Shown in pieces: positions 18,743-55,823 of a stretch of DNA of 64,000 nt. Source of the stretch: Anaerocolumna cellulosilytica. Lineage in GTDB: Bacteria > Bacillota > Clostridia > Lachnospirales > Lachnospiraceae. The position numbers and the translations under genes are program-made. Under the pieces are notes generated by a model. The model did no database searches, was not told the origin of the DNA, and was given only the letters and a program-made list of their open reading frames with translations. Positions within the stretch are counted from its first letter, which is position 1. Each line of letters starts with the position of its first letter. The DNA is taken from contig NZ_AP023367.1 in the NCBI RefSeq assembly GCF_014218335.1, positions 2,357,501 through 2,421,500 of the forward strand, read 5' to 3'.

Positions 18743-19519
18743 ATGATGCGGTTATATGGTGGAATTGATATTGGTTCAACCACAAGCGAATTCATAATAG
18801 TCGATGAAACAGGCAGCTTAATTTATAAAGACAGAACCTTAACATCCGGCAATATAAAAGCTGCAAGTGAAACGGTTTATAATAATTTTAAGATTAGTGA
18901 ATTAGGCAATAGGGATTTGGACGCAATTGTTGCAACCGGCTATGGCAGAAAATATGTACCCTATGTAGATAAAAATATAACAGAAATAACCTGTTATGCA
19001 AAAGGAGCAAAATTTATACATCCCGCTGTAAAAACAATCGTTGATATCGGTGGTCAGGACTCAAAAGTTATTACTGTTAATGATAGAGGGGATGTGGATG
19101 AGTTTGTTATGAACGACAAATGTGCCGCAGGAACAGGGCGGTTTCTAGAGCTTGTTGCTAAGATTTTTAATATTAATGTAGATGAACTCGGGGATTATTC
19201 CGAGAAGTCAGATAAAGTCGTACCCATTAGTACGGTATGCGCAGTTTTTGCTGAGTCAGAAATTATTTCTTTAATTTCCCAGCAGGTATCGGCAGAGAAC
19301 ATAATTCGTTCCATCCATAATTCCATTGCAGAAAAGATACGAGGAATGGCAGGCAGGCTTCAGGCAAAAGAAGATATTATGTTTTGCGGAGGCGTTGCCA
19401 GAAATAAAGGTATGGTAAAAGCAATTGGTCAATTATTTAATTCAGACAATATTATAGTACCACAAGAATCAGATTATATAGGAGCCATGGGGGCAGCGTT
19501 ATTCGCTGCTGGTTTGTAA
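18743..19519 (+). CDS. HgdC/BadF-type ATP-dependent activase of 2-hydroxyacyl dehydratases
   Basis: 258 aa, the usual length for a 2-hydroxyacyl-CoA dehydratase activator. It has an ASKHA-fold ATPase start (GGIDIGSTTSEFIIVD), a DIGGQDSKVI phosphate loop, Cys127 in NDKCAAGTGRFLE and Cys166 in STVCAVFAESE. These are the two positions expected to hold the [4Fe-4S] cluster between two subunits. Such proteins inject one electron, driven by ATP, into a dehydratase that removes a 2-hydroxy group. No dehydratase A/B subunits are present in this window, so its target is unknown: possibly encoded elsewhere, or a PKS-linked substrate. Ribosome site AAAAAGGAGG. Confidence 0.9.
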   Translation: MMRLYGGIDIGSTTSEFIIVDETGSLIYKDRTLTSGNIKAASETVYNNFKISELGNRDLDAIVATGYGRKYVPYVDKNITEITCYAKGAKFIHPAVKTIVDIGGQDSKVITVNDRGDVDEFVMNDKCAAGTGRFLELVAKIFNINVDELGDYSEKSDKVVPISTVCAVFAESEIISLISQQVSAENIIRSIHNSIAEKIRGMAGRLQAKEDIMFCGGVARNKGMVKAIGQLFNSDNIIVPQESDYIGAMGAALFAAGL

Positions 19520-28277: not shown

Positions 28278-29873
28278 ATGAATACAGGTAATCAAATATC
28301 TTTGTGGATTCGACCGGAAGCTGAGGAATTAGAGTTATATAGCGGCAAGGACTTATTAAAGAATTTTCAAGAGAGTGTTTATGTCTATGAAAAGAATGGA
28401 ATATTTTTTATTACCAGAGAAGGCAATATTTTATTAAATGAAAAGGATGGATATTATAAGCTAGTTGCTAATGATAGCAGTTACAATAAGGTAAACTTAG
28501 GCTCAGGAGAGTTCATTAAGGAACACCAGGTCAGTTATCCATACGTGTTAGGAGGCATGGCACAGGGGATTGCTTCGGTTGATTTGGTAGTAGCGGCGGC
28601 AGAAAAAAATATCATGAGTTTTTTCGGAACCGGGGGATTGAATCTTCAAAGAGTAGATAATGCATTGAAACAGATTAAAAGCAGAATTAAAAAAGATGGT
28701 GTATATGGAGTTAATATCATATCAGCAAATCCCAAAAAGGATGAAGAAATAATTAGTCTGCTTATACAGCATGAGGTTAGAATAATAGAAGTAGCAGGAG
28801 CAGTTACACTTACTCCAGCGATTGTTGAATACCGATTGCAAGGCATACATAAAAAAGATAATCGGATTATTACTAAGAATAAGATTTTTGCCAAGATATC
28901 CAGAGAAGAAGTAGCCTCACTCTTTATGTCCCCGCCCCCGGAAAAAATAATTACCCAATTATTGAATGAGGGAAGAATTACAAAAGAAGAAGCAAGACTT
29001 GCAGTAGAAATATCTGTTTCGGAAGATATTATTGCAGAGGCTGATTCAGGAGGGCACACAGATAATCGTCCGGCGTTAGTTCTATATCAAAATATGGTTC
29101 TGCTGCGAAATCAAATAATGAAGAAATACCAGTATAAGCATGGAAGAATACGAATAGGAGCAGCGGGGGGGATTTGTACCCCATATACAGTATATGCAGC
29201 CTTTTCTCTGGGAGTAGATTTTGTTATGACTGGTTCTGTTAATCAAAGCTGTATAGAGGCTGGCACTAGTCAGGAAGTGAAGACAATATTATCAAAGCTG
29301 TCAATGAGTGATGTGGCGAATGCACCCTCTGCTGATATGTTTGAGATGGGAAGCAGAGTTCAGGTTATGACAAAAGGTCTACTCTTTCACGTCAAAGCCA
29401 ACAAACTTTATGAAGTCTATAAAAATTTTGACAGTATAGAGCAGATAGATAGCAAAACCAGAAACTATTTGGAAGAAAAAGTATTTAAAGAAAACCTTAA
29501 CGATGTATGGCACAAAACCAGACAATTTTTTGTAGATAATGACCCCATATTATTAAGTCGTGCAGATAAGAATGAGAAACTGAAGATGGCATTAATATTT
29601 AGAAGTTATCTTGGACTTTCATCAAAATGGGCACAAAATGGGGAAATGGATAAAAAAGTAGATTTTCAGGTTTTTTGCGGGCCGGCTATGGGGGCATTTA
29701 ACCGATGGGTAAAAGATACCTACTTAGAATATCCGGAGAACAGAAGGGTAGCAGATGTTGCAAAAAATATGATATATGGAGCAATGTATCTGAAAAGGCT
29801 GTACTTTTTAAGTACACAGTGTCAAAGGATAGATATGAATAATTTTCAAGTAGTACCTGACGAGAAATGGTGA
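28278..29873 (+). CDS. PfaD-family trans-acting enoyl reductase
   Basis: 531 aa, ATG after GGAGATGTGA. An FMN-dependent TIM-barrel enzyme related to nitronate monooxygenases. Visible are the PfaD-type N-terminal part (SYPYVLGGMAQGIAS), the glycine-rich FFGTGGLNLQRV, the diagnostic ADSGGHTDNRPA and GAAGGICTPYTVYAAF. PfaD homologues reduce enoyl-ACP double bonds in trans and are typical of PUFA and AT-less PKS systems. None of the PKS modules here shows an MDR-type ER domain, so this enzyme is the likely source of enoyl reduction. Confidence 0.9.
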   Translation: MNTGNQISLWIRPEAEELELYSGKDLLKNFQESVYVYEKNGIFFITREGNILLNEKDGYYKLVANDSSYNKVNLGSGEFIKEHQVSYPYVLGGMAQGIASVDLVVAAAEKNIMSFFGTGGLNLQRVDNALKQIKSRIKKDGVYGVNIISANPKKDEEIISLLIQHEVRIIEVAGAVTLTPAIVEYRLQGIHKKDNRIITKNKIFAKISREEVASLFMSPPPEKIITQLLNEGRITKEEARLAVEISVSEDIIAEADSGGHTDNRPALVLYQNMVLLRNQIMKKYQYKHGRIRIGAAGGICTPYTVYAAFSLGVDFVMTGSVNQSCIEAGTSQEVKTILSKLSMSDVANAPSADMFEMGSRVQVMTKGLLFHVKANKLYEVYKNFDSIEQIDSKTRNYLEEKVFKENLNDVWHKTRQFFVDNDPILLSRADKNEKLKMALIFRSYLGLSSKWAQNGEMDKKVDFQVFCGPAMGAFNRWVKDTYLEYPENRRVADVAKNMIYGAMYLKRLYFLSTQCQRIDMNNFQVVPDEKW

Positions 29874-29880
29874 CTTCGCT

Positions 29881-30681
29881 ATGAAAAAAAATGAAAAAAT
29901 TGTTCTTACTGAAGGGGATAATAAGTTTGCTATCCGATTTTTTTCAGAAGATAAGACCAAACCGATTATGTTCTGTTTTCCCTATATTGGAGGAAACTCC
30001 AATTGCTATCGGAAGTTATCAGATAAACTTCTGCCTTATGTGAATATAGCGGCTATCGACCCGCCGGGGCATGGCGTAGTGAATGGCAAGTTAATGCAGA
30101 ATATAAATGAGTTGGTAGAGGTTTATTATAAAGGTCTTCAAAAATATATTAATGGCAAATTCTACATTTTTGGGCATAGCCTTGGAGGGATAATCAGCTA
30201 TTTGCTTACTGCCAGGTTTGAGCAGGAAGGTCAAATACCGGAGAGTGTTTTTATAAGTGCTGCAACACCTCCAAGCCGTATACCCTATGAAATAGAAAAT
30301 ATGCCTCAATTCGAAACAGACGAAGGCATTAAAAAGGAATTGCTGGCTCTTGGAGGGAAGTATGCTCAATTGGTGAACAGTAACAGTATATTTTTATTCT
30401 CGTCTCTTAGGATTATTAAAGCCGATTATAAATTAGTTAGAAGCCTTGACGTAAAGCAAAGCCCTTCTTTGCATACGCAAAGTTATATACTTTTTAGCCA
30501 TGAGGATGAAGTGGCAGATGCTAAATTTATAAAAGAGTGGAAGAAGTATTGCCAAAACAGCGAAGTAATTACTGTTACCGGTAATCATAATTACATCGAA
30601 GAAAATACAATAGAAATTGGAAAAATTGTTTCTGACAGAATAAAAAATAGAAATTCTTACTTTATTGGACAAGGTGATTGA
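29881..30681 (+). CDS. Type II thioesterase, copy 2
   Basis: 266 aa, starting 8 bases after the PfaD stop. Same family as the gene at 27452: FCFPYIGGNSNCYRKL, DPPGHGV, Ser100 in FGHSLGG and a C-terminal His in GNHNYI. Two TEIIs in one operon suggest separate targets, for example editing of PKS carrier domains versus release from the discrete ACPs. Its stop (TGA at 30679) nearly touches the start of the next gene, indicating translational coupling. Confidence 0.87.
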   Translation: MKKNEKIVLTEGDNKFAIRFFSEDKTKPIMFCFPYIGGNSNCYRKLSDKLLPYVNIAAIDPPGHGVVNGKLMQNINELVEVYYKGLQKYINGKFYIFGHSLGGIISYLLTARFEQEGQIPESVFISAATPPSRIPYEIENMPQFETDEGIKKELLALGGKYAQLVNSNSIFLFSSLRIIKADYKLVRSLDVKQSPSLHTQSYILFSHEDEVADAKFIKEWKKYCQNSEVITVTGNHNYIEENTIEIGKIVSDRIKNRNSYFIGQGD

Positions 30682-30682
30682 T

Positions 30683-31840
30683 TTGAGAATACCTGAACTT
30701 GGCGAAAAATATAAGAATGTTTTTCACATCTCAAAAGAGATGGTTATGGATTTTAGTAGCTTTTCCAAAGATGATAACCCATTACATGTTAACGAGGAAG
30801 CCGCTCGTCAGTATGGATACCAAAATCCGGTATGTCACGGTGCCATCCTACTTTCGGAGATTAGTAGGATAATAGGAACGCAGCTGCCGGGAAATGGTGC
30901 ACTATGGTCGGATTTAGATATTAGTTTTTCATCCCCCGTCCTATGGAACGAGACGGTTGATATTGAGGTAGAAGTAATACAAAGGAGTGAAGCACTGGGA
31001 ATCATAAAGCTCCAAATAGAGGTGTTAAAAAAAGCAAAAAAGGTGTTGTCAGGAACTGCTAAAGTTATGTGCTTGAGAGAGATAAAAAGGAGTTATCCTA
31101 TGTTGGATTTATCAAAAAGATGTGCGTTAGTCACAGGAGGTTCCAGAGGGTTAGGACTTGGCATAACACGGGAGCTACTTGAGGATGGGTATCATGTGAT
31201 AACTTTATCCAGAGCAGAATCAGAAGAAATAAATAAACTACAGGAAGTATATAAAGGAAAAATGAAGCACATATCCTGTGATTTGAGCCATTTTGAAGAA
31301 TTAAAAAATTTGATTCATCATACGAACCAAACCTTTATGCCAATTAATAGTGTTATTCATGCAGCAGGTCCGGCACCACAAAAGATAAACATGGGCAGTC
31401 AAATAAATGAGACAATTGATACGTATTTTAACGTATACATTAAAAGTTTAATTCAAATACTAGAAGTATGTATACCCGATATGAAACAACTGAAATATGG
31501 CAGAGTGATAACCATAGGTACATCTTACATATTAGGAATGCCGCCACTTGCAATGTATCCATACATTATCGGAAAAGAAGCACTTTGGGGACTGACAAAA
31601 TCTTTGGCGGTTGATGTGGGCAGATACGGCATAAGTGTTAATATGATATCACCCTCTATGATGGTAACAGATATGACTTCTGAAATATCCAATGCAGCGA
31701 AATATGCAGAGGCTCAAAAAAACCCTATGTGTCGTTTTGCAGAATTATCAGAAGTTGCTAAGACGGTGACTTTTCTCTGTGGTGAGGGGGGAGCCTTCAT
31801 AAATGGAACCAATATTCCTATTACCGGAGGCGGAACATGA
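30683..31840 (+). CDS. MaoC-like hydratase fused to an SDR ketoreductase
   Basis: 385 aa from the TTG at 30683, placed after AAGGTGATTGAT; in-frame TTG 30665 and GTG 30674 are alternatives. Residues 1-135 form a hot-dog R-specific enoyl hydratase with the catalytic pair in DDNPLHVNEEAA. Residues about 145-385 form a FabG-like short-chain reductase with GGSRGLGLG, Ser in IGTSYILG and Tyr294/Lys298 in YIIGK. The fusion could interconvert 3-oxo, 3-hydroxy and 2-enoyl acyl-ACP, either supplying in trans the KR/DH steps missing from modules or processing the starter. Its stop overlaps the next start (ATGA). Confidence 0.85.
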   Translation: MRIPELGEKYKNVFHISKEMVMDFSSFSKDDNPLHVNEEAARQYGYQNPVCHGAILLSEISRIIGTQLPGNGALWSDLDISFSSPVLWNETVDIEVEVIQRSEALGIIKLQIEVLKKAKKVLSGTAKVMCLREIKRSYPMLDLSKRCALVTGGSRGLGLGITRELLEDGYHVITLSRAESEEINKLQEVYKGKMKHISCDLSHFEELKNLIHHTNQTFMPINSVIHAAGPAPQKINMGSQINETIDTYFNVYIKSLIQILEVCIPDMKQLKYGRVITIGTSYILGMPPLAMYPYIIGKEALWGLTKSLAVDVGRYGISVNMISPSMMVTDMTSEISNAAKYAEAQKNPMCRFAELSEVAKTVTFLCGEGGAFINGTNIPITGGGT

Positions 31841-33519
31841 ATGATAAGGTGCAATTTTTGCTAATATCCGATTTTACAATCAATCCATTACAATCTTTGC
31901 TAAAACAACAGTTTCACCATTATTCTTGTGATTTTATGGTATCTCCTATCGGTCAGATTATACAGAGTGTAAATGAAATTTGCTGTCAGAAACCCTCCAC
32001 CATGGAACAGGCTGTTATATTGTGGACAATGCCAGATAGACAGATTCATGAATTTAAAAAGCTATACTCTAATAATATGTATGACAAAAATGTAATGTTC
32101 CGGCAGGTATTAGAGTATGCAGAATATATAAGAAAACTTTCAGAAGTAGTCAAATTCATTGCCGTACCGATTTGGACACTAAACAGTAATTACAGGGGGA
32201 ATGGTATTCTTAATTTTAGATATTCTACAGGAATCTACAGTGTGTTAATGCAAATGAACTTAAAGCTCGCAAAAGCTTTAGAAGACTTAAGTAATGTATA
32301 TATTCTGTATACGGATCAATGGATGAAAGTCTCTGAAAAAGCCGAAGATGAAAAGATGTGGTATTTTGGAAAGATACCCTTTACCCAAAGCATCTTTAGA
32401 CAGGCGGCAGAGGATATTAAATCAATATATGATGTATTAACAGGTAGAACAAAAAAATTACTGGTACTGGATTTGGATAATACTTTATGGGGTGGTATCG
32501 CAGGAGAAGATGGCATTAATGGTATAAGACTTGGGGGCGTAGATTATATTGGTGAAGCCTTCCTTGAATTTCAAAAACATTTGCTACAGCTGAAAAATAA
32601 AGGACTCCTACTGGCTATATGCAGTAAAAATGATGAAGACACTGCCATGGAGATTATAGAAAAACATACAGAAATGATACTACGAAAAGAAGATTTTGTC
32701 GGCTTTAAAATTAATTGGGAGGATAAGGCTAAAAATATAAGAGAACTTGCCTTGGAGCTAAATCTGGGACTTGCCTCTGTAGTATTTATTGATGATAGTC
32801 CCTTTGAACGGGCAAGAGTTATGAGTGAACTGCCTGAGGTTTTGGTTCCCGAATGGCCAATGGAACCAATCCATTATGTGAAAGCCTTAAATGGCTTAAG
32901 GTGTTTTGATAAAGCATCTTTTAGTACGGAAGACACACAAAGAACCAATTACTATAGACAGGAACAGGAAAGGAAAAAAACAATTGAGAATACCAGCAAT
33001 ATAGAAGAATGGCTGTATCAGATTGCGTTAGAGGTTAGATTTGAACCTGTGAATGATTCGAATGTCCAGCGTGTTTCCCAATTGTTGAATAAAACCAATC
33101 AATTTAATCTTATAACAAGAAGACTAGAACAGTATGAAATTATGGCGTACTGCAATCAGGAACAGGCAGGCGGTGTTGCATTTTATGCAGCAGACAAGTT
33201 CGGCAGCTATGGATTGATTGGTTTTTCCTCTTATGAAATGAATGAAAATAGTCTTTTTATAAAAGATTTTTTACTAAGCTGCAGAGCTATGGGAAAAGGT
33301 ATTGAAATGGCTATGTTAAATATATTAAAAGATATAGCGGTTAGTGAAGGTAAAGACAGGATACTAGCGCAGTATATACCAACAGATAGAAATAAAGCAA
33401 GTGGAGATTTTCTAGGAACTTCAGGCTTTATGAAGGATGGGGCAATGTATGTACAGCATAATCTCCGTGCAATCAATAAACCTCCTTATATAACCATCAC
33501 GAATGAGATAGAGATTTAG
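31837..33519 (+). CDS. FkbH-like HAD-superfamily glyceryl(acyl)-ACP synthase
   Basis: 560 aa. The N-terminal SGNH-like part (about 1-200) is followed by the HAD domain starting at LLVLDLDNTLWGG (Asp212, Asp214), with CSKNDEDTA and VFIDDSPFERA. A C-terminal GNAT-like region holds SQLLNKTNQFNL and ends near GTSGFM. FkbH proteins load a three-carbon unit from 1,3-bisphosphoglycerate onto an ACP, giving glyceryl-ACP, the precursor of methoxymalonyl-type and other unusual units. A small ACP gene follows directly, matching the known FkbH/ACP pairing. Confidence 0.88.
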   Translation: MNDKVQFLLISDFTINPLQSLLKQQFHHYSCDFMVSPIGQIIQSVNEICCQKPSTMEQAVILWTMPDRQIHEFKKLYSNNMYDKNVMFRQVLEYAEYIRKLSEVVKFIAVPIWTLNSNYRGNGILNFRYSTGIYSVLMQMNLKLAKALEDLSNVYILYTDQWMKVSEKAEDEKMWYFGKIPFTQSIFRQAAEDIKSIYDVLTGRTKKLLVLDLDNTLWGGIAGEDGINGIRLGGVDYIGEAFLEFQKHLLQLKNKGLLLAICSKNDEDTAMEIIEKHTEMILRKEDFVGFKINWEDKAKNIRELALELNLGLASVVFIDDSPFERARVMSELPEVLVPEWPMEPIHYVKALNGLRCFDKASFSTEDTQRTNYYRQEQERKKTIENTSNIEEWLYQIALEVRFEPVNDSNVQRVSQLLNKTNQFNLITRRLEQYEIMAYCNQEQAGGVAFYAADKFGSYGLIGFSSYEMNENSLFIKDFLLSCRAMGKGIEMAMLNILKDIAVSEGKDRILAQYIPTDRNKASGDFLGTSGFMKDGAMYVQHNLRAINKPPYITITNEIEI

Positions 33520-43400: not shown

Positions 43401-46400
43401 ATGAATAAACAAGAATTACAGAAAATGCTGGAACAAGTACAAAAAAGAGAAATACACTATCTTGAGGCTGAAAAAGCCATGAGGCAGAATGATAGGAAGC
43501 CGAAAGAAATATCGGAGGAAAATCATAAGATTGCAGTTATCGGTTATGCTTGCAGATTTCCTTCTGCTGACAATGTGGACGAATTTTGGAGCAGTCTTAT
43601 AAACGGCAGGGATTGTATTACAGAAATACCGGCTAAGAGATGGTCCTTAGAGGGCTTTTATGACCCCGGTTCTGCTATTGAGAGCGATACAAGTTATTCT
43701 AAATGGGGTGGTTTTTTAAACTCAATTGCTGCATACGATTTAGGATTATTTCATATGACAAAACAGGAAGCCTTAGCCATTGATCCGCAGCAGTTACTTG
43801 CTATGGAGGTGGCAAGGGAGGCTTTAGAATATGCAGGGTATGGAAACATAAAGGAAGAGGACTCGAATACGGGTGTTTTTATAGGGGCCAGGTCTTCAAA
43901 TGTAACATTGGGTATGTTACAGGAACGCATAAATGAAAAAGAATATAAAGCTGAGGATAATCGTAATTACATAATCGGTAAAGCACCGAATATGATTGCT
44001 TCCAGAATTTCAGACTTTTTAAATCTGAAAGGTCCTTCAATGATTATTGATACAGCTTGTTCCTCCTCTTTGGTAAGTATTCATATGGCATGTAAGAGCC
44101 TACTGGCGGGAGATTGCTCAATGGCGCTGGCAGGGGGGATTGATTTACTGGTTAACAGTGATTCTTATGTGGGCTTATCTAAATCCAAGGCTATATCACC
44201 GGATGGAAAGTGCTTTACCTTTGACAAAAGAGCCAATGGTTATGTACCCGGGGAAGGTGCCGGCATTGTAGTTTTAAAGGAATATATGCAAGCGGTAGCC
44301 TGTGGAGATACGATTTATGCAATCATAAAAGGCTCTGCCATAAATAACGACGGACACACTATGGGTATTACGACCCCTGATCTGGAAGGACAGAAGGAAT
44401 TAATTAGGGCTGCTTTAAAAGATGCAAAGGTATCAGCAGAGACAATAACATATATAGAAGCGCATGGAACTGGAACCGTTATCGGAGATCCAATTGAAAT
44501 AAAAGCATTAGCCAGTGTTTATGGGGAGAGTACGGATAGAAAGGGTTTTTGCGGGATTGGTTCTGTAAAGACAAATATTGGACATCTGCATTGTGCAGCA
44601 GGGATTGCAGGATTTATTAAGTTATTGCTCTGTATGAAAAACAAAACACTTGTGCCTACCCTAAATTGCCAGATGCCTAATCAAAGATTTGATTTTGTTG
44701 ATTCTCCGTTTTTTCCTGTGTCCAAGATGGAAAAATGGGAGCAATATAAGGAACATAGAAGAGCTGCAATTAGTTCATTTGGGTTTGGAGGAACAAACTG
44801 CCACATCATTGTAGAGGAACAGGAAGATGATAAGAAACACGAATGGGAGACAGAAAGGTATTTACCCTTTGTTTTATCGGCGGCGGATAATGAGGCACTT
44901 GGTAAGGTGACAAGTCAATACATAGATTTCTTTAAAGAGAATCCAAAAGTCCGCTATAAAGACGCAGCGTATACCGTGATTACCGGCAGAGAGAAGTTTG
45001 AATACAAATTATTTACTTATGCCAAGAACACAGATGAGCTAGTAAAGCAGCTTAAGAAATTTTCTGATGGGGATACCCATAAGACAAAGATTGTTACTGG
45101 CAGTGTTTATACAGAAGGAAAAAAGAAAAAGATACCTGGTAAAGTAGTAGTCATGTTTACCGGGCAAGGGGAACTGTATACAGGTGTTGCAAGAGAACTC
45201 TATGAAACAAGCTCTGTCTTTAGAAGTACCATTGATAATTGCAGTGATATATTATTACCCTATGTGGGACAGAGTATTTCAGAGTTACTATATAATACTG
45301 AAAATGCAAAGCTTTTAAAAAACACGTATATAACACAGCCGGTTACCTTTGCTCTGGATTATGCTTTGTTTGTCTTATGGAAGACTTATAATTTACCTGT
45401 GGCAGTAGTAATGGGACATAGTCTGGGTGAGTATGTGGCGGCTTGTGCAGCCGGTATATATGAACTAGAGGATATACTAAAAATAGTAGCCATCAGGGGA
45501 AAAATGATGGGTGAACTTCCGGATAATGGAACCATGGCTGCGGTAATTGCCGGTGAAGCAGTAGTAAATGAATTGTTTGATGAACTTAGTTTTGTAGAGA
45601 AAGCACAAGTATCCATTGCCGCGGTGAATGGAGCTGCTAATACTGTAATTTCAGGTGAGAAAACGGTGGTTGCAGGCATTTGTGAAAAACTTAAACAGAG
45701 TTCTATAAAGTATGTATTATTACAGGTATCCCATGCCTTTCACTCTCCTCTAATGAAGCCTATGTTAGACAAATATAGAGAAGTGATAGGAGCTGTTAAG
45801 CCAAAACCATCTGCTATAAAAATAATCAGTAATGTTACGGGGGATTTTTTGAAAGAGGGAGACCTAACGACAGAGTACTGGGAAAACCATATTCTAAATA
45901 CAGTACAATTTAAACGCAGCATTGAAAAACTGATTTCAGAAGGGTATAGATATTTTATAGAAATGGGCCCTGGAAATACCCTTTTAAAGCTTACAAAAAA
46001 TATAACTCATGGGAATGGGGAAGTCACAATATGTTCTTCATTGGTAAGAGATACTTCTGACTGGCAGCAAATCCTTCAGACACTGGGTGAGCTTTTTGTT
46101 AAGGGAGTAGAATGCAAGCTGTCCGATTTTTTCAAGGATGTACATGCTAAAAGAATTGCGTTGCCTACATATAATTATGCAAGAGAAGATCTGTTTAATA
46201 AAGATAAATTCGAACAAGACCTTCTTCTTAGTGAAACTGTTTCTTTATTTGATGGGATTATATCAAAAACAACTGCCTATGTATCTTATTTTAAAATACT
46301 TAATACTAAGAAAGACAGGGTGTTAAAAGACCACAGGGTAAGAAATGCTTATGTAGTTCCGGGCGTCTATCAATTAAAACTTGCCCTCGCAGGAGCACAC

Positions 46401-49400
46401 AAGCTTTGGAATAAGAAGATAAGCTGTGTAGAAAGCATTACATTTATAGAACCGATAAATGCTATACAGAATCAAGATTTGTTACTGCGGATACGGATTT
46501 ATCAGGATGGCAGCCAATGCTTTCAAATCGACAGGTGGGATGATACAAAAAATCGCTTTCTTTTATGCAGTCGTGGAATGTATTCGACGACTTGTGATGA
46601 AAACGCAGTTCATTCATTCGGCAATGTAAACAGTATGGAGGAACAGACGGCTGTAATTGATTCGAACGAGATTTATGAGTATATGAACCGCATCGGTTTA
46701 CAATATGGGGATTATTTTAAAGGACTTAAAAAGATTACAGTGGGAACACAAACAATCATTGGAGATATAGACCTTAAAATAAAGGATTCCTTAAAAGAAA
46801 AGGATGCTTTACACCCGGGTGTACTAGACGCTGCATTGCAGGTCATTTCTTCAAAACTTTACCTAACACAAAGTGAATATACATATGTTCCGTTTTGTAT
46901 TGGTAAAATGATGATGATTCAGCCAATGTCTGATAGCCATTACAAAAGTATAGTGAAGGTACAAGAGGATGAAAAGCAATCAGAAATAATAAAGGCAGAT
47001 ATTAATATAATAGACAGCAGACAGCAAATTGTTATGATTCTAACAGAGGTTTGTTTAAAAAAGCTAGCCTTAAATAGCTTTCATTTACCGGCTCAAAGCA
47101 GACAATCCCAAGACCTGTTTTATAAACCACTATGGATTGAAAAGTCTCGTGCCAGGTATGACGGGAACTGGAAGCATAAGAATCTTTTAGTATTTGTGGA
47201 GGAAGATAATCAGCTTCATAACGATGTAATAGCAAACCTGAATAAAGAAGAATGCAATATATACTATATATACAAAAGCAACCGGGTCGAATACGGTGAC
47301 CATAGTATATTTAGAGTGATACAAGGGCAACCGGAAGCGTTATTGGCTATTATAAGGATATTAAAGGATAGAGGAATAGTGCCGGATTATGTTTTATATC
47401 TGTGGACGCTGGATGGATATAACAGTTTTGAAGCATTAAAGCCGTTAGATGTAAAATTAAATTCTTATGGTTTAGATATTATATATCTGCTAAGGGCCAT
47501 GAAAGACAACCAGATAAATCATCCGGTCAGAATTCTGACTGTGACAAATAATTGTCAGCCAGTTATTGGAGGAAGTGATGTGTTATGCCCCGAAAAGTCA
47601 GATATTCTGGGAGTGATTAAAACGATTCCTTTAGAATTCGAATATATTCGTGCTGCCAATATAGATTTTGATTGCCGGGATTTTATGCAAGGTACTATTG
47701 GGCAGACCATAGTAAAAGAACTTTCGGGTAGTGACGGGGAACATTTTATTGGGTACAGAGCAGAAAAAAGATTTATTATGAGCCTTGAAAAGATGGATTT
47801 GGCAAAACAGGCTATACAACAGGAACTTGTACTTAAGCAGAATGGTACATACATAATACTAGGTGGTCAAAGTGGTGTTGGAATTGAGATAATAAAGCAT
47901 CTATCTGAAAAGGTTTGTGCCAATTTTGTTGTAATATCCCGTAATAAATTTCCGGACGTAACTGCCTGGGGAAAACTTTTGCAAGAAGGGAATCCCACAT
48001 TAGAAAGTACCAAGGATAAAATTAAAGCTTATAAAGGCGTTTTGACAAACGGCTCACATCTTTCCTTTTATGAAGGGGATATAACAGACTATGACAGGAT
48101 GAAGGACATTTTCGAGGATGTAAGACGTAAACATGGTTCTATTAACGGCGTTATACATTCAGCAGGCATACTTAAGGATTCATTGATATTGAATATGGAC
48201 TCTGAAAAATATACCGAGGTTTTAAAACCAAAAGTTTTAGGAGCAATAATAGCTGACCGGCTTACTGAGCATGATTCCATAGATTTTATGATTTTATTCT
48301 CGGGACTTGTTTCTTATGTAGGTTTAATGGGGCAGAGCAATCATACAGGGGCTAATTTCTTTGAAGATAATTTTTCATATTACAGAAATTATGTAAAGAA
48401 AAAGCGTACTCTTACAATTAATTGGGGTATATGGGGCACGGTTGGAATTGTAGCAAAACCCATGTATACGCAGACATTAAAAGATAAAGGATTTATGCCT
48501 ATGACAGTTTTAGAGGCTTTGGAGGCTTTTGATACGGTGCTGACAACTGATTTACCGCAGGTAGGCATAGGACATATATCAGCTCAAAAACAAAAAGAAA
48601 TTTTATATCATATAACGGATGCAGATAAGGTATTGCAGTCGGATGAAGCTTATATAAAGAGAATAGGCGACTATGATATGGAATTAAGTCAACTTTTAGG
48701 GCAAGTAGACTCAAAGTATGAGACAGAGTTTGGTAAGGAGCTTAATAGCCTTTGCGCCGTTTTTATTATTGAGTTTATAGAAAGTAATGGGGTATTTATA
48801 AAGGATGGGGATGAACCTTCTACGGAGGAAGTGATTCATCGATGTAATATACTTCCAAAGTTTAAGAAATTGATCGAAGCTATGCTAAGTTTTGCCATAG
48901 AGGAAGGCTTTATAAACAAAAATGGTAGAAGATTAATACGTACTTATTCTAGAAGTTCAGATGATTTTAAAAAGCGTTGTACTTGGTTTAAAGAAAAGTT
49001 CAAAAAAGACGAGATATACGCAATTATCTTAGAGAACTGTTTCAAACATTACAGCGAGGTCTTATCCGGAAGAATGAGTGCAATGCATGTGTTGTTTCCG
49101 GGCGGAAATACAAATACTATGGAAAGGCTGTACCACCTGCCCTCTCCCCATAATGAGTATATTGGAAAATTGGTTAGACAACTGGTCACTTCATTTCCGG
49201 AGAAAAGAGAGGTTAAAATTCTTGAAATCGGAGGAGGAACCGGAGGGACTACAGCAAAAATACTACCTGCGCTTGCAGGTTTAAAGGTTGCATACACATT
49301 TACAGATATATCACCGATTTTGGTAAAGTGTGCCAAAGAAGCTTTTCATAAGTATGAATATGTTACCTACCTTCCATTAGATATTGAGAAAGAACAAAAC

Positions 49401-52400
49401 CAACCAACTGTATATTTGGACTCATTCGATATAGTAATAGCTGCCAACGTGCTTCATGCTACAGCAAGCCTGCCTGTTACCTTTCAAAATGTAAAACAGT
49501 TTATGAATAAAGAAGCAGTACTAGTCATGATGGAGACAACAAGAATAACCGGGTTTGCAGATTTGGTATTCGGAATAACTGATGGTTGGTGGAAATTTCA
49601 AAATACGGACTTTAGGAAAGATTCAACTCTTTTATCTCCTGATCAATGGAGGGACACATTAAATCATTTGGGTTTTGGCAGAGTATGTACTTTACCTTTA
49701 ACAGAAAGAGAAAGTGTAAGATATCCATATTCTGTTATCATCGCTGATAAAATCGAGTCGGCAGATAGTCAGAAAGAGCCGGTAAAGTTATTGAATGCAG
49801 CTACGGACAGGAGAAGTTCCTCATCAATAAAGCAGGAGACAGGCGCAGCCATTACAGATAAATCCACAAGTAAACCGGTTTTTGGAATTAATGAACAAGA
49901 GATGTTTGTATATATTAAAAACGTTGTAGTTTCACTGATTATAAAGGTTACCGGAATTGACGGCTCTTTGATTGTGTCTGATGTAGGATTTTTAGAAATG
50001 GGACTGGATTCTCTGACTTTGGTAGCTTTGTCCGGTGTCATTGAAAAGGAACTGTTTATTACCTTATACCCTACTGTATTTTTTGAGTATCAAACAATTG
50101 ATGAACTGACAAAGCATTTATGCGATAAACACCAAGAGAAAATGATTTCTTATATACATGAAAAACACTTAATAAGCACCTTGACTGACGAAGTTACTCA
50201 ACCTGTAGACAGGAGTGATTGGAATAATAAAAGCATAGCAGAAGAATTGAATCATGAATTTAAAGAACCCAAAGCAAAAGAAGATAAAAATAAAGAAGAT
50301 GAGCTTAAAGAGGATGAAGTTAAAGAAACGGATAAACTAACAGTAAAGGAAGAAATAAACAGCAATCAATATTTTTATAAGAATAACAGTACAGAAGAAC
50401 CAAATACCTCTGGTAATACGGAAGATATTGCTATCATTGGTATGGCAGGTATTTTTCCGGGAGCAGAGGATGTGTATCAATTATGGGATAATTTAATAAA
50501 CGGCAAAGACAGTGTACAGGATATTAATAGCCAGCGATGGAAGGATACAACTATCTTTGAGGAAAAACAATCAAATTTTGATAAAAAACAATCAAATTTT
50601 GATAAAAAACAATCAAAAGGCAAGACCTACTGTAAATGGGGAGGCTTGCTAAAGGATTATGATAAGTTTGATCCTGTATTTTTTAATATCTCCGTAAGAG
50701 AGGCAAAAAGAATGGATCCCCAGCAAAGGCTGTTTTTGGAGACTGCCTGGGGAGCAATTGAAAATGGCGGCTATCCCATAAAAAGACTCTCGGAATTAAA
50801 GGTTGGTGTATTTGCAGGAGTCTCCAATCATAATTACCATAATATATCTTATGACCAGAATGATTCTTTTTGTACATTAAGCACATCAAATGCTATGGTA
50901 GCAAACCGTTTTTCCTATTTTATGAATCTGACAGGACCAAGCCTTACCATTGATACCCAGTGTTCCTCTTCCATGACAGCCTTAAATTACGCCTGCAAAA
51001 GCCTATTATCTGGAGAATGTGATATGGCTGTTGCTGGTGGAGTAAATATAATTATACCGAAAGAATATTATGTTTTACTAAGTCAGGTTAGAGCAGTATC
51101 AGCAGATGGAAAATGTAAGACCTTTGATAAAAGCGCAGATGGCTTTGTTTCGGGAGAGGGTGTGGCAGTTTTACTTTTAAAACCTTTAACGCAGGCTGTA
51201 AAAGATAAAGACAATATTCATGCGGTTATTAAAGGTGTTTCTGTAACACATGACGGCAAGTCCAGCAACGTAAGCGCTCCAAATGCTAATTCGCAATGTA
51301 TGGCTATCACAGAGGCTTTAAAGAGGGCAAAGGTTAATCCTGAATCTCTAGCATTCATAGAGGCTCATGGTACGGGTACAAGTTTAGGAGATCCGGTTGA
51401 AGTGTCCGCACTTACAAAGTGCTTTGAACAGTATACGGATAAAAAAGCATTTTGTGCCATTGGTTCGTTAAAGTCCAATATCGGACATCTGGAATCTGCG
51501 GCAGGAATAGCAGGTATTATAAAAGCTGTTTTGGCCTTACGTAACAGGCGAATACCTCCTACTATACATTTTAATCAACCTAACAGCTTTATTGATTTTA
51601 ATTCTACACCTTTTTATGTGACGGATAGGCCGGTAGAGTGGAAAAGCAATCAATTAATGAGAGCCGGTATAAGTTCATTCGGAATGGGAGGTACCAATTG
51701 TCATTCTATTCTGGAGGAAGCTCCTAGGGTATCTTCTGGCAATAAGAAGGATATCAATGTGCCGTTTCACTTATTTACTGTATCAGCAAAGTCAGAACAT
51801 TCCTTGTGGAAGACGATTGAAAAGGTAGGTGCTTACATAGATAATAATGAAAGTCTGGAAATAGAGGATATCTGCCACACAATGAATGTTACTAGAAATC
51901 ACTTTGCTTACAGAACTGCCTTGGTGGTTAATACAAAAGAAAAATTAGTAAAGCTTATTAAAGAAGCAGTAAAGAAGAAATGTAACAAGGAGAACCTGAA
52001 TGTACACGGCATGTATTACAACTTCCAGTCACCTTATGGAGAAAGTGCTAAATCCACGATTAATTATCTGGTTTCTGACAGAATATTTAGCAACTATGAA
52101 TTGGAGGGGTTAAGGCAGAACTTGTTGTTTCAAGAAGCTTTCTTATATATGGAAGAAATTTTTTCATTGGATGTTACTAGAGGTATATCTTATAAAGCAG
52201 AAGCGTTTTTGTCCATGGGACAGAAAGAAATAATTGCCCTTATTTTAAAGGCAGTTATGGCAAGAATATTGATCCGTTATAACATTCGACCGGCCTATAT
52301 TATAAATGCTGGTGAAAAAGATAATGTAACCGTTCAGCTTATAGCCGGACAGATTGTCCTTAGTGAAGCAATTAAAAAGTTAGCAGAGTCCTATAAAGTC

Positions 52401-55400
52401 AGTATTTATCCGGAGAGAGTGGAATATGATTTTCAGTTACCGGCTATGCCGATTATTGCGCTGGATGATTATAAGACATATATGCAGGAACAGAATAAGG
52501 AGACTTTAAAAGAAGTAACCATTGAAATCGGCCCTGATGATTATTACAGCGATAAGATGATACACCAAGTGGCAGAAAAGAATATAAGAACAGTGGTAAT
52601 CCCATTTTTACAAAGTGATGTTACTAACTGGTATTCTATTATCTCATTGGTTGGATATGTATATTCCATAGGAACTGACATAGACTTTAAAACCTTTGAT
52701 AATTTATATAACGGAAAAGTAGTAGATCTTCCCACCTATGTTTTTGACCATAAATCTTACTGGATTGAAAAACACGAGGAGGAAACAGTAAGTTATCAGT
52801 TTCAGAAAGAATATTTAATAAATGGATTAAAAGCTGGTAATCGGATTGTGAAATCCGGGACAGAAATCGGTATGGCGGAAAAAGATGGCTCTATCAACGA
52901 AGAATACATTAATTATTATAAAAGATGGAGTGATATCGGGGCTGGTATTAAAATACTTGGGAATTTCATGGTAGATTCAAGGGGAAGAAACAGTGACAAC
53001 GAGGTTGTAATTGGCAATGAATTGAATCAGAAGAAACAGTTGCTCCGGTTAAATAAATTGCTTAAAGAAGAGGATACTTTACTTTTAATACAAATAAATT
53101 ATGGAGGAGTAGAAAAAACTAAATTTACTTTGGATAGATTATCCCATAATCAAATCGGAGAGATAATTAAGCGTTTCATAGAAGCTGCCGTTGTTGTAAA
53201 GGAAGGTGAATTTGACGGAATACAGCTTCATGCGGCCCATGGATACCTATTATCACAATTTCTGTCTTCAAAGTACAATTCACGCACCGATAATTTTGGA
53301 GGAAGTGTTACAACCAGAACAGAAGTTATTAAAACCATTGTACAGGGGATACGAAAAACCTTAGGCAAACAATTTGTTATTAGTGTAAAGCTGGACATGC
53401 CGGGTGAAGACAAAGGTGTATCCATAGAAGAATTGGTTGAAATTATAAAAGGCCTAAAGCAAGTGTCTGTTGATATAGTCGAATTAAGTGCCGGAATTGT
53501 TAGTAAAGAGGATACTTTAGCGGAAACGGTTTTAGCAGAGTATAAGACAGTGTTAGCTGCTGTAAAAAAAGATATCCATATTCCGGTTATAGTAACCGGT
53601 GGCATACGTAAACGGGAGCAGATTGAGCAATTACTTACGACTTATAATGCTGATTTTGCTGGCCTTGGCCGTCCCTTTATCTATGAACCTGCAATTATTG
53701 AAAACTTAAAGGGGAATATAGAAGATATGAGTGGCTGTACTTCCTGCTCCATGTGCTTATATACGCTAACTAATAATGGGTTAAGATGTGTTCAAACGAG
53801 CAGAAAAAAAGAAGTAACATCTGCTCCTTACCAAGCGTATCTATTTGAACAGTCATGGGTGGAAACAAACAGCAACGTTCCTAAAAAGGTGCAAAGTACA
53901 TTGCAGGGTGTATATGCAGTTTTCTGTGAGGATGAAGTTAAATTTAAAGCCCTTAGTAGTTGCCTGGAAGCCAGTGGTTATATGGTATATAGAATAAAAG
54001 ACAGCCTCGGTTTTAAGGAGGAAGGGAAGACGTTTAGTATTAATTTTACAAAAGAGACAGATTATATAAAATTAGTTCATCAGTTACTGGATGAATTCGG
54101 ACAGAATTTCAATGGTTTCATACAAGTGGCATTTGGTTCAGAGGATGAATCTGTTTCCGTAGATTTATCACAAGACGCGGCAGTCTTTCTACAGATGTAT
54201 TTAGCGAAAGCAGTTCTGTTGTCAAAAACCGATACTATAATAAAGTTAATTGCAGTTACCTTTAACGGAATAACGATGATGGCTGATAAGATGGTTAATA
54301 CGGAACATATTTTACTGAATGGGTTGAACCGGATTAATCCATATGAAGTTAAAAATATACATGGATTATCTCTTGATTTTGAGGAGAAGACAGATGCTAA
54401 CGATTTTGCGGAGGTAGTGGTATCAGAATTGACCGGTTTTAATAGCCGGTATAAAGAAGTTGCCTTTCGAAAAAACTGCCGATATGAACGAAGCATCACA
54501 GGCTATATGGGAGTAATTAATACGGAAAGTTATAGTATAGAAGGGGGCGTATACCTGATTGCCGGAGGTCTGAGTGGTCTTGGCAAATTATTTGCTGGAT
54601 TTCTTATTAAGAATAAGGCAAAAGCTGTGTACCTTATTGGCAGAAGAGATATGAGTCAAATGTCACAAGGCGAAGAACTAAAAGAATTAGTAGAACTTAG
54701 TAGAGAATATAGTCTGACTACTCTTGAATACAGAAGTGCAGATATAGCGGATTATGAAGCAGTAGATGAAGTTATTAGAGAGATGACCAGAAGGTATAAA
54801 ACCATTCAGGGCATCATCCATTGTGCCGGAATTGTTGACCGTGAGAACCGGACTTTAAGGACTAAGAATTATAGTTCATTCTCACGGATTCTCAGACCAA
54901 AGTATCAAGGGACAATAAACCTTGCCAAAGTTTTTAACAATACTTTGCCGGACTTTATGATATTTTGCTCTTCTATTTCCGGAATCAGCGGGAAACTGGG
55001 GGCAACCTTAAGTGACTATGGGACAGGCAATTTCTTTATGAATGAATATGCAAAAGCAGTATCAAACGCTACCGGAAAAAAAGTTGTATCAATTAGCTGG
55101 CCCTTATGGGATGGCGTAGGACTTGGAGCTAACAAGGCATATGGTGGTGAAGGATATTCCATAGACAGAGAACTTGGTTTAAGAATTTTTGAAGCAGTGA
55201 TAAGGTCAAGAGAATGCAGGAATCTTGTGATTTTAAATCCGAAGAGCACAGAAATCATGTCAGATTTTGCAGCGGTTGAAGAGGCAGCAGCCGGTATACA
55301 AAAAGCTGAGGATATAATTAACTCAGTTAGGACCGTTAGTATCAATTCAGATTTCCTATCAGAAGAAAACAGAGCGAATGTAAAAGAATTTCTAAAGAGC

Positions 55401-55823
55401 CTGCTTGTGGAATTTTTGCAGATTGAACATTCTCTGATTAGAGACGAAGCTGAGTTTTATGAATATGGTATTGATTCCGTTATTGTTGCAGATATTGTTG
55501 CAAAAATTGAAGAAAGATATAAAATCTTCCTCCATCCATCCACCTTACTAGAATATACAAGTATAAAGTCACTTAGTGAGTATCTTATAAAAGAATTTAG
55601 GATAAGTGATGCATATAATATGAAGGAATTAAGGGGAGAAAAGATAAGTACTGTAGAAGAAAGTATTTCTTTTATAAAGGAAAACGTGACCAATCCGGAT
55701 TTTTCAGAGAAAATTATAGGTAATGTTGCAGATAAAGATACAAGGCTTGACAGCCTGCTTGATGAAATATATGAAGGAGATATAACCGTAGAAGAAGCTC
55801 TGAAAATAATTGATGAGGTATAG
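43401..55823 (+). CDS. PKS2: bimodular synthase, KS-AT-DH-KR0-cMT-ACP-KS-ATx-OYE-KR-ACP
   Basis: 4140 aa. An N-terminal helical docking part is followed by KS1 (43-460, Cys220). An intact AT (580-880) has Ser674 in GHSLGEY and H778 in HAFHS, a malonyl-type pattern. DH has His978 and Asp1143. KR (1478-1720) has both catalytic positions changed: Gly1635 for Ser and His1648 for Tyr. A C-methyltransferase (about 1772-2115) has LEIGGGTGGTT. ACP Ser2204 precedes a charged linker. KS2 (2340-2775, Cys2521 in DTQCSSS) carries a short repeat insertion. An eroded AT has AGEKD at 2970-2974. An Old-Yellow-Enzyme-like domain covers 3137-3475. Pseudo-KR plus intact KR (to about 3960) and ACP Ser4026 complete the module, with a C-terminal docking helix (LLDEIYEGDITVEEALKI). 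It is likely to add one C-methylated unit and one oddly processed unit. Confidence 0.92.
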   Translation: MNKQELQKMLEQVQKREIHYLEAEKAMRQNDRKPKEISEENHKIAVIGYACRFPSADNVDEFWSSLINGRDCITEIPAKRWSLEGFYDPGSAIESDTSYSKWGGFLNSIAAYDLGLFHMTKQEALAIDPQQLLAMEVAREALEYAGYGNIKEEDSNTGVFIGARSSNVTLGMLQERINEKEYKAEDNRNYIIGKAPNMIASRISDFLNLKGPSMIIDTACSSSLVSIHMACKSLLAGDCSMALAGGIDLLVNSDSYVGLSKSKAISPDGKCFTFDKRANGYVPGEGAGIVVLKEYMQAVACGDTIYAIIKGSAINNDGHTMGITTPDLEGQKELIRAALKDAKVSAETITYIEAHGTGTVIGDPIEIKALASVYGESTDRKGFCGIGSVKTNIGHLHCAAGIAGFIKLLLCMKNKTLVPTLNCQMPNQRFDFVDSPFFPVSKMEKWEQYKEHRRAAISSFGFGGTNCHIIVEEQEDDKKHEWETERYLPFVLSAADNEALGKVTSQYIDFFKENPKVRYKDAAYTVITGREKFEYKLFTYAKNTDELVKQLKKFSDGDTHKTKIVTGSVYTEGKKKKIPGKVVVMFTGQGELYTGVARELYETSSVFRSTIDNCSDILLPYVGQSISELLYNTENAKLLKNTYITQPVTFALDYALFVLWKTYNLPVAVVMGHSLGEYVAACAAGIYELEDILKIVAIRGKMMGELPDNGTMAAVIAGEAVVNELFDELSFVEKAQVSIAAVNGAANTVISGEKTVVAGICEKLKQSSIKYVLLQVSHAFHSPLMKPMLDKYREVIGAVKPKPSAIKIISNVTGDFLKEGDLTTEYWENHILNTVQFKRSIEKLISEGYRYFIEMGPGNTLLKLTKNITHGNGEVTICSSLVRDTSDWQQILQTLGELFVKGVECKLSDFFKDVHAKRIALPTYNYAREDLFNKDKFEQDLLLSETVSLFDGIISKTTAYVSYFKILNTKKDRVLKDHRVRNAYVVPGVYQLKLALAGAHKLWNKKISCVESITFIEPINAIQNQDLLLRIRIYQDGSQCFQIDRWDDTKNRFLLCSRGMYSTTCDENAVHSFGNVNSMEEQTAVIDSNEIYEYMNRIGLQYGDYFKGLKKITVGTQTIIGDIDLKIKDSLKEKDALHPGVLDAALQVISSKLYLTQSEYTYVPFCIGKMMMIQPMSDSHYKSIVKVQEDEKQSEIIKADINIIDSRQQIVMILTEVCLKKLALNSFHLPAQSRQSQDLFYKPLWIEKSRARYDGNWKHKNLLVFVEEDNQLHNDVIANLNKEECNIYYIYKSNRVEYGDHSIFRVIQGQPEALLAIIRILKDRGIVPDYVLYLWTLDGYNSFEALKPLDVKLNSYGLDIIYLLRAMKDNQINHPVRILTVTNNCQPVIGGSDVLCPEKSDILGVIKTIPLEFEYIRAANIDFDCRDFMQGTIGQTIVKELSGSDGEHFIGYRAEKRFIMSLEKMDLAKQAIQQELVLKQNGTYIILGGQSGVGIEIIKHLSEKVCANFVVISRNKFPDVTAWGKLLQEGNPTLESTKDKIKAYKGVLTNGSHLSFYEGDITDYDRMKDIFEDVRRKHGSINGVIHSAGILKDSLILNMDSEKYTEVLKPKVLGAIIADRLTEHDSIDFMILFSGLVSYVGLMGQSNHTGANFFEDNFSYYRNYVKKKRTLTINWGIWGTVGIVAKPMYTQTLKDKGFMPMTVLEALEAFDTVLTTDLPQVGIGHISAQKQKEILYHITDADKVLQSDEAYIKRIGDYDMELSQLLGQVDSKYETEFGKELNSLCAVFIIEFIESNGVFIKDGDEPSTEEVIHRCNILPKFKKLIEAMLSFAIEEGFINKNGRRLIRTYSRSSDDFKKRCTWFKEKFKKDEIYAIILENCFKHYSEVLSGRMSAMHVLFPGGNTNTMERLYHLPSPHNEYIGKLVRQLVTSFPEKREVKILEIGGGTGGTTAKILPALAGLKVAYTFTDISPILVKCAKEAFHKYEYVTYLPLDIEKEQNQPTVYLDSFDIVIAANVLHATASLPVTFQNVKQFMNKEAVLVMMETTRITGFADLVFGITDGWWKFQNTDFRKDSTLLSPDQWRDTLNHLGFGRVCTLPLTERESVRYPYSVIIADKIESADSQKEPVKLLNAATDRRSSSSIKQETGAAITDKSTSKPVFGINEQEMFVYIKNVVVSLIIKVTGIDGSLIVSDVGFLEMGLDSLTLVALSGVIEKELFITLYPTVFFEYQTIDELTKHLCDKHQEKMISYIHEKHLISTLTDEVTQPVDRSDWNNKSIAEELNHEFKEPKAKEDKNKEDELKEDEVKETDKLTVKEEINSNQYFYKNNSTEEPNTSGNTEDIAIIGMAGIFPGAEDVYQLWDNLINGKDSVQDINSQRWKDTTIFEEKQSNFDKKQSNFDKKQSKGKTYCKWGGLLKDYDKFDPVFFNISVREAKRMDPQQRLFLETAWGAIENGGYPIKRLSELKVGVFAGVSNHNYHNISYDQNDSFCTLSTSNAMVANRFSYFMNLTGPSLTIDTQCSSSMTALNYACKSLLSGECDMAVAGGVNIIIPKEYYVLLSQVRAVSADGKCKTFDKSADGFVSGEGVAVLLLKPLTQAVKDKDNIHAVIKGVSVTHDGKSSNVSAPNANSQCMAITEALKRAKVNPESLAFIEAHGTGTSLGDPVEVSALTKCFEQYTDKKAFCAIGSLKSNIGHLESAAGIAGIIKAVLALRNRRIPPTIHFNQPNSFIDFNSTPFYVTDRPVEWKSNQLMRAGISSFGMGGTNCHSILEEAPRVSSGNKKDINVPFHLFTVSAKSEHSLWKTIEKVGAYIDNNESLEIEDICHTMNVTRNHFAYRTALVVNTKEKLVKLIKEAVKKKCNKENLNVHGMYYNFQSPYGESAKSTINYLVSDRIFSNYELEGLRQNLLFQEAFLYMEEIFSLDVTRGISYKAEAFLSMGQKEIIALILKAVMARILIRYNIRPAYIINAGEKDNVTVQLIAGQIVLSEAIKKLAESYKVSIYPERVEYDFQLPAMPIIALDDYKTYMQEQNKETLKEVTIEIGPDDYYSDKMIHQVAEKNIRTVVIPFLQSDVTNWYSIISLVGYVYSIGTDIDFKTFDNLYNGKVVDLPTYVFDHKSYWIEKHEEETVSYQFQKEYLINGLKAGNRIVKSGTEIGMAEKDGSINEEYINYYKRWSDIGAGIKILGNFMVDSRGRNSDNEVVIGNELNQKKQLLRLNKLLKEEDTLLLIQINYGGVEKTKFTLDRLSHNQIGEIIKRFIEAAVVVKEGEFDGIQLHAAHGYLLSQFLSSKYNSRTDNFGGSVTTRTEVIKTIVQGIRKTLGKQFVISVKLDMPGEDKGVSIEELVEIIKGLKQVSVDIVELSAGIVSKEDTLAETVLAEYKTVLAAVKKDIHIPVIVTGGIRKREQIEQLLTTYNADFAGLGRPFIYEPAIIENLKGNIEDMSGCTSCSMCLYTLTNNGLRCVQTSRKKEVTSAPYQAYLFEQSWVETNSNVPKKVQSTLQGVYAVFCEDEVKFKALSSCLEASGYMVYRIKDSLGFKEEGKTFSINFTKETDYIKLVHQLLDEFGQNFNGFIQVAFGSEDESVSVDLSQDAAVFLQMYLAKAVLLSKTDTIIKLIAVTFNGITMMADKMVNTEHILLNGLNRINPYEVKNIHGLSLDFEEKTDANDFAEVVVSELTGFNSRYKEVAFRKNCRYERSITGYMGVINTESYSIEGGVYLIAGGLSGLGKLFAGFLIKNKAKAVYLIGRRDMSQMSQGEELKELVELSREYSLTTLEYRSADIADYEAVDEVIREMTRRYKTIQGIIHCAGIVDRENRTLRTKNYSSFSRILRPKYQGTINLAKVFNNTLPDFMIFCSSISGISGKLGATLSDYGTGNFFMNEYAKAVSNATGKKVVSISWPLWDGVGLGANKAYGGEGYSIDRELGLRIFEAVIRSRECRNLVILNPKSTEIMSDFAAVEEAAAGIQKAEDIINSVRTVSINSDFLSEENRANVKEFLKSLLVEFLQIEHSLIRDEAEFYEYGIDSVIVADIVAKIEERYKIFLHPSTLLEYTSIKSLSEYLIKEFRISDAYNMKELRGEKISTVEESISFIKENVTNPDFSEKIIGNVADKDTRLDSLLDEIYEGDITVEEALKIIDEV
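50563..50617 (+). repeat. 21-base tandem repeat inside the second KS of PKS2
   Basis: Two full copies and part of a third of a 21-base unit (CAATCAAATTTTGATAAAAAA) encode K-Q-S-N-F-D-K heptads at about residues 2388-2408. They lie in a surface loop near the KS N-terminus, just before the conserved GKTYCKWGG. Other KSs in the cluster have only a short spacer here. The length is in frame, so the repeat could vary without breaking the gene. Confidence 0.85.
52810..53815 (+). other. Embedded Old-Yellow-Enzyme / 2,4-dienoyl-CoA-reductase-like domain of PKS2
   Basis: Residues about 3137-3475 of PKS2. The start INGLKAGNRIVKSGTEIGMA matches the OYE N-terminus. The family-defining block is present: GIQLHAAHGYLLSQFLSS (His3277, His3280, Tyr3282) and then RTDNFGGS. 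FMN phosphate contacts fit VIVTGGIRKREQ and GLGRPFIYEP. The end has Cys3446, Cys3449, Cys3452 and Cys3463 (C-x2-C-x2-C-x10-C), resembling the [4Fe-4S] motif of dienoyl-CoA reductases but with shorter spacers. The FAD/NAD half of those enzymes is absent. The domain lies between the eroded AT linker and the pseudo-KR, where the DH lies in neighbouring modules. Confidence 0.88.

Follow-up and report, generated by a model that had tools for sequence, protein, structure and literature searches.

An old yellow enzyme-type domain with a four-cysteine motif in the dehydratase slot of a polyketide synthase module of Anaerocolumna cellulosilytica

The window analysed here is a 64,000-nucleotide stretch of the Anaerocolumna cellulosilytica genome (contig NZ_AP023367.1, positions 2,357,501 to 2,421,500) that contains part of a polyketide synthase (PKS) cluster. 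With its borders set by eye, the cluster runs from about position 18743 of the window to about L036:19609, beyond the window, and it encodes the synthases PKS1-PKS6, a free-standing dehydratase (DH; L036:12035-12850), a DH-ACP-KS protein, a PfaD protein, an FkbH protein and two thioesterase-like proteins, together with three aminotransferases, two 3-hydroxyacyl-CoA dehydrogenase-like proteins and, at both ends, parts resembling 2-hydroxyacyl-CoA dehydratase. The PfaD-type trans-acting enoyl reductase (28278-29873; TIGR02814, 575 bits against a cut-off of 449), a MaoC-SDR fusion that from its domain matches is a candidate trans dehydratase/ketoreductase (30665-31840) and the FkbH-type protein (31837-33519; TIGR01686) are all encoded on the forward strand. 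A further enoyl reductase (ER) of the MDR type lies within PKS4 (L057, residues 5291-5620), where it is placed after an ACP.

PKS2 is a bimodular protein of 4140 amino acids, encoded on the forward strand by a single uninterrupted frame of 4140 codons (43401-55823). Pfam matches and intra-cluster comparison assign it the order KS-AT-DH-KR-MT-ACP followed by KS-(AT remnant)-OYE-KR-ACP, where OYE denotes a domain of the old yellow enzyme type. In module 1 the DH (46236-47090) has both of its catalytic motifs (LKDHRVRNAYVVP and HPGVLDAALQ), the KR (47166-48500) has a His at the position of the catalytic Tyr (GQSNHTGAN), and a C-methyltransferase-like domain follows (49011-49790; Pfam and intra-cluster comparison). 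Module 2 has, as expected of a PKS extension module, a KS, a KR and an ACP with catalytic motifs on one polypeptide: the KS (50424-51617) carries DTQCSSS and EAHGTGT, SDYGTGN is intact in the catalytic subdomain of the KR (54543-55142; Pfam and intra-cluster comparison), and the ACP (55377-55589) was placed by intra-cluster comparison. By Pfam the sole DH match of PKS2 is that of module 1, no MDR ER (ADH_N/ADH_zinc_N profile) is matched anywhere in the protein, and module 2 has no Acyl_transf_1 match that would mark an AT of its own. Residues 2726-3124 do match a profile built from the ATs of the cluster and their linkers (E 1.3e-47), with the significant parts on the KS-AT linker side (profile positions 1-192) and on the post-AT linker side (424-507). 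Within residues 2740-3121 (51618-52763) little of an AT core can be recognised and GHSxG is absent; on this linker similarity the stretch is probably the remnant of an AT with its flanking linkers.

Residues 3125-3475 (52773-53825, forward strand) follow this remnant. Judged by its sequence matches, this stretch is a member of the OYE family and not a FadH, a PfaD or an MDR ER. Pfam Oxidored_FMN (PF00724) matches residues 3147-3442 with an E-value of 3.5e-34, and a score of 119 bits against a cut-off of 27 means that the match did not arise by chance; beside it there is a weak match to Dus (1.5e-4). The features from which the original prediction had drawn an OYE-type domain, namely HAAHGYLLSQFLS (residues 3277-3289), RTDNFGGS (3295-3302), GRPFIYEP (3423-3430) and a cysteine cluster, all lie in frame in the open reading frame at 43401-55823, and the family assignment is borne out at the level of predicted structure. 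An AlphaFold model of the domain, made from an input alignment of 48 rows, has a pLDDT of 89.8 and a pTM of 0.91 and is a predicted (beta/alpha)8 barrel of the OYE kind, with confidence dropping in the cysteine-bearing blocks (pLDDT 75 and 63), and all 50 PDB matches listed by Foldseek belong to the OYE family (TMq 0.74-0.82). The location of 52810-53815 proposed originally was right but its extent was not, the domain being slightly longer at about 52773-53825. Positions for the active site and for flavin contact are present as H3277, H3280 and Y3282 of the sequence HAAHGY (HxxHxY motif; 53229-53246), Q3231, K3330 and G3423-R3424, whose roles we take to be those described for the HxxHxY, Q, R/K and GR positions in the literature on OYE and YqjM. 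A Lys rather than an Arg at position 3330 is invariant in the seven rows of an alignment of the domain with relatives (A1).

The domain sits between two recognisable parts of a PKS module. It is preceded by the post-AT linker LPTYVFDHKSYW (residues 3110-3121), and residues 3476-3714 (53826-54542) match the structural subdomain of a KR (hhalign 95.5%, E 1.3e-8), a comparison in which two sibling modules gave 97.1 and 98.4% and four control stretches at most 0.2%. The OYE domain thus occupies the slot of the DH in a module that has none, as had been proposed. In module 2, 975 residues separate the end of the KS match from the KR match, and 624 of them remain when the 351 residues of the OYE domain are subtracted; the second module of PKS1, of PKS3 and of PKS4 has a corresponding spacing of 601, 631 and 675 residues, respectively, so that the OYE domain is cleanly inserted into a KS-KR-ACP module that is otherwise normal. 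It is extremely improbable that an error of assembly or gene calling fused an OYE gene with a PKS gene, since the frame is unbroken over 4140 codons in a genome that consists of one contig and is rated 100% complete, the domain is set between two PKS subdomains, and its GC content (0.367) and GC3 (0.305) differ little from the gene-wide values (0.370 and 0.317).

How well the domain has kept the features of its family was assessed by column conservation and by a quick tree of 109 rows (the domain and 108 homologues). By ORF length (at most 550 amino acids) 80 of the 108 homologues are single-domain proteins, and columns were counted over these 80, excluding 28 longer homologues that to judge from their length are mostly FadH-like. 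Of the 25 columns that are at least 90% conserved among the 80, the domain retains 24, a share equal to that of the median homologue (0.96), and with the predicted barrel this agrees with the FMN-binding fold on which the original prediction depended. At the level of at least 80% it keeps 35 of 46 columns against a homologue median of 0.93, and at the 50% level 72 of 134 against 0.70, and its loop after Q3231 is shortened relative to the homologues. This pattern suggests that the core has been held while the remainder drifts. Homologues of the domain are distant: across the tree alignment the highest identity is 33%, to a FadH-like fusion (L013); among the matches listed from 299 genomes of the same family, local identity reaches 39% over about 215 residues, again to FadH-like fusions, and trimethylamine dehydrogenase and histamine dehydrogenase are also among its sequence matches. 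In the tree the domain lies in a fork of 36 rows (support 85), comprising 25 single-domain proteins with four cysteines, nine single-domain proteins without the motif and one fusion, nested in a fork of 41 rows (support 94), both values being below 95, and no well-supported small group in the 109-row tree contains it. Its end branch measures 2.09 against a median of 0.46. The rows nearest to it by tree path are mostly single-domain OYEs, and four of the nearest five lack the full four-cysteine motif.

The cysteines of the motif C3446-x2-C3449-x2-C3452-x10-C3463 (53736-53789, forward strand), which from their spacing and from alignments are putative ligands of a [4Fe-4S] cluster, are the only cysteines in residues 3125-3475, the whole protein having 57. 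HMMER aligns C3446, C3449 and C3452 with cysteines of 1ps9 (FadH, the 2,4-dienoyl-CoA reductase of E. coli), while C3463 lies beyond the aligned part. FadH and trimethylamine dehydrogenase hold a [4Fe-4S] cluster through these cysteines, and such a cluster is likely in the OYE domain as well. Three of the four cysteine columns are invariant in A1, and the remaining one is kept in six of its seven rows, L053 being the exception. A four-cysteine motif is also found in 36 of the 80 single-domain homologues, all 36 with ORFs of 343-416 amino acids, when counted by a regular expression over the whole ORF that scores L053, lacking one cysteine, as without. The motif is thus not an invention of the PKS: the spacing noted originally stood, and the idea of an electron relay peculiar to the PKS was given up, although a cluster bound by these cysteines may relay electrons. 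Apart from one 44-codon antisense frame, the ferredoxin-type motif C-x2-C-x2-C-x3-C is absent from the window, L034-L036 and L059, so that a donor of this kind would come from elsewhere in the genome; no electron donor was recognised in these same regions.

The architecture is solitary in the genomes searched, by which we claim rarity and not uniqueness. The genome itself (5.43 Mb, one contig) holds one PKS-embedded OYE domain and two FadH-like genes (frames of 947 and 667 amino acids). Among the matches listed from 299 genomes of the family, 391 of the class, 15 of the genus and 398 of the phylum, sets that overlap and that each include the genome studied here, there is no other frame of PKS size with an OYE, and, its own frame excepted, the longest frame that matches over the OYE part has 1043 amino acids. 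At most four candidates were scored per genome in the family search, three in the class and two in the phylum, and the class and phylum searches were run at an E-value of 1e-30, at which a more distant embedded copy could escape. Eight other rows from the genus set lie in frames of 1741-6564 amino acids or PKS-like frames and match the flanks of the query only. A first scan of genome contigs with the single protein found no relatives. In a second GTDB scan, which combined alignment A1 with one peptide pattern, the best 80 of 596 confirmed loci (from at least 598 stretches) have ORFs of 324-782 amino acids, and none is a PKS with an OYE; a KS-like motif, sought by regular expression, occurs at one of these 80 (L117) and is lacking at the other 79. 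Plasmid records with a match number 2296, all below 60% identity, and no PKS is among the named features of the 20 matches listed. The portions of the literature available to a search on old yellow enzyme with polyketide synthase contain no description of an OYE domain inside a PKS, and the case in PMC4744452 is, in the part available, a separate gene and not a PKS-embedded domain. The view that an OYE is not a standard PKS domain has therefore held, no second case having been found in the listed matches from these genomes or in that literature.

Several known systems come close to the domain. The single-domain OYEs with four cysteines share with it the barrel, the HxxHxY motif, the columns of the flavin site and the C-x2-C-x2-C-xn-C tail; they are separate proteins, whereas the PKS domain is an in-frame part of a module and is 26-32% identical to the six in A1, and by comparison only the PKS domain has a shortened loop after Q3231. 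Enzymes of the type of FadH and 2-naphthoyl-CoA reductase, which bind FMN, a 4Fe-4S cluster and FAD, likewise have an OYE barrel followed by a cysteine motif, and Foldseek matched the PKS domain to 1ps9 (FadH) with a TMq of 0.78 and to 6qkg (2-naphthoyl-CoA reductase) with 0.81-0.82. However, FadH, 2-enoate reductase and the type III aryl-CoA reductases continue into a C-terminal FAD/NAD(P)H domain, which the PKS domain lacks, the structural subdomain of the KR standing in its place. GbnE, a PfaD/FabK-type trans-acting enoyl reductase related to FabK and bearing a GGHT/I motif (PMC10921412, in the part available), is an FMN enzyme that acts on ACP-bound double bonds as proposed here for the OYE domain. 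PfaD and FabK nevertheless form a different flavoprotein family of separate proteins, while the OYE domain would act in cis and does not match the NMO/PfaD profile. An MDR-type ER domain performs in cis the C=C reduction that we propose, but belongs to another protein family.

On this evidence we favour the reading that the stretch is an OYE-family domain that binds FMN and is catalytically active as an ene-reductase, probably acting in cis on the ACP-bound chain of an AT-less module. The domain would descend from a single-domain OYE that was captured into the DH slot and whose C-terminal tail bore four cysteines, probably binding a [4Fe-4S] cluster. Hydride from reduced FMN would go to the distal carbon of an activated C=C bond, Y3282 would protonate the other carbon, and H3277 and H3280 would hold the activating carbonyl, roles presumably the same as those described for OYE and YqjM. 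OYEs without an Fe-S cluster accept hydride from NAD(P)H. In the PKS domain the FMN could take its electrons straight from NAD(P)H or, given that the FAD/NAD(P)H domain of the FadH type is missing, from a separate donor via the Fe-S centre. A precedent for the latter comes from aryl-CoA reductases of the OYE family, which carry FMN, FAD and 4Fe-4S and reduce CoA thioesters with a low-potential donor; in the part of that report available, reduced methyl viologen was the best donor and ferredoxin is concluded to be the likely one (PMC13365417). By analogy, a PKS domain fed by ferredoxin is possible.

The substrate that we tentatively propose is a 3-oxo-4-enoyl thioester. Module 1, with its DH and methyltransferase, would pass on an alpha-methyl enoyl chain, elongation by module 2 would convert this to an enone, and the OYE domain would then saturate C4=C5 and set the methyl centre, with reduction of the C3 ketone by the KR coming afterwards. 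An enone is the classical OYE substrate, and the motifs of the module 1 DH and of the module 2 KS and KR are intact. The weak point of this route is the His in place of Tyr in the module 1 KR, which suggests that this KR is dead; formation of the enone might then require a trans-acting KR. Since PfaD and an MDR ER are already present in the cluster, a third reduction system would imply a distinct task, which slightly favours the enone. Taken at its fullest, as an in-cis, oxygen-sensitive FMN/[4Fe-4S] OYE that uses low-potential electrons to saturate C4=C5 of an enone before ketoreduction, the domain would represent a new reductase class, a conjunction that we consider rather unlikely.

An alternative, scarcely less likely than the enone route, is that the domain is instead the ordinary enoyl reductase of its own module, saturating a 2-enoyl thioester after the KR and a trans-acting dehydratase have acted; the chemistry would be the same, and this case is counted within the ene-reductase reading. 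As module 2 has no DH, its own 2-enoyl substrate requires a dehydratase in trans, for which the cluster offers candidates in the MaoC-SDR fusion and in the free-standing PKS DH. Against this, the cluster is already provided with a trans-acting PfaD and an MDR ER domain, and plain enoyl thioesters are usually poor substrates of OYEs.

Two further readings would deny the domain a net reduction, and we regard both as improbable. In one it is an isomerase or a desaturase that moves or introduces a double bond, the Fe-S cluster drawing off electrons in the case of desaturation, and it is in keeping with this that OYE members with an Fe-S cluster can act as dehydrogenases, as do the trimethylamine and histamine dehydrogenases found among the sequence matches. 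Nevertheless HAAHGY is a motif of the kind found in the active sites of ene-reductases and is present in many homologues, and no sign of oxidation was seen in the cluster. In the other the domain is a non-catalytic relic or a structural spacer, as the long end branch, the shortened loop after Q3231 and the lower share of columns kept at the 80% level might suggest. Set against these are the retention of 24 of the 25 most conserved columns and of all four cysteines and the state of the neighbouring AT stretch, which has lost GHSxG while the OYE domain beside it has kept its core, a difference that we count in favour of a catalytic OYE.

The reductive domains of PKSs form a short list of KR, DH, MDR ER and the trans-acting PfaD. 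What is new here within the genomes searched, as read from the sequence, is the location of a known enzyme family, which sits inside a PKS module and has retained its core, and if it is catalytic, an OYE in the DH slot would extend that list by a further type of domain that reduces C=C bonds. Were the proposed route correct, the double bond of the previous module could be removed at the enone stage with control of the methyl centre, and the usual rule by which structures are predicted from gene clusters would be broken. OYEs are well-studied biocatalysts of asymmetric alkene reduction, and one already adapted to ACP-bound chains would, if our reading is correct, be of service in engineering.

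Several other features of the cluster deserve mention. AT-bearing modules mostly alternate with modules in which no AT is recognisable (window 33847-64000, L034, L035, L057 and L058). Two AT-less modules follow one another in PKS6, weak AT fragments occur in PKS4 and PKS6, and neither Pfam nor intra-cluster comparison gave any AT match in PKS1; the AT-less modules must be loaded by another AT. One end of the cluster is marked by an activase (18743-19519; CoA_E_activ, above cut-off), and at the other end are two HGD-D subunits (L036:16487-17611 and 17630-18973) whose best NCBIfam matches, HadC-like and HadB-like, fall below cut-off. Together these parts would make up a 2-hydroxyacyl-CoA dehydratase-like enzyme within a polyketide cluster, whose substrate is perhaps a unit supplied by the FkbH protein; a paper listed for this combination looks unrelated. 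Two class III aminotransferases (21232-22554 and 22643-23965) are nearest to glutamate-1-semialdehyde aminomutase models, below cut-off, and are followed by a class I/II aminotransferase (23974-25137). Elsewhere in the window, a protein of 2789 amino acids (7375-15744) has 23 matched stretches of Listeria-Bacteroides repeat (Flg_new) and adjoins a GH9 glycosidase-like gene (16199-17848). Downstream of the cluster lie an ABC transporter pair, an AadA_C-type nucleotidyltransferase and an APH-family kinase (L059:259-2351, 9271-10044 and 11397-12317).
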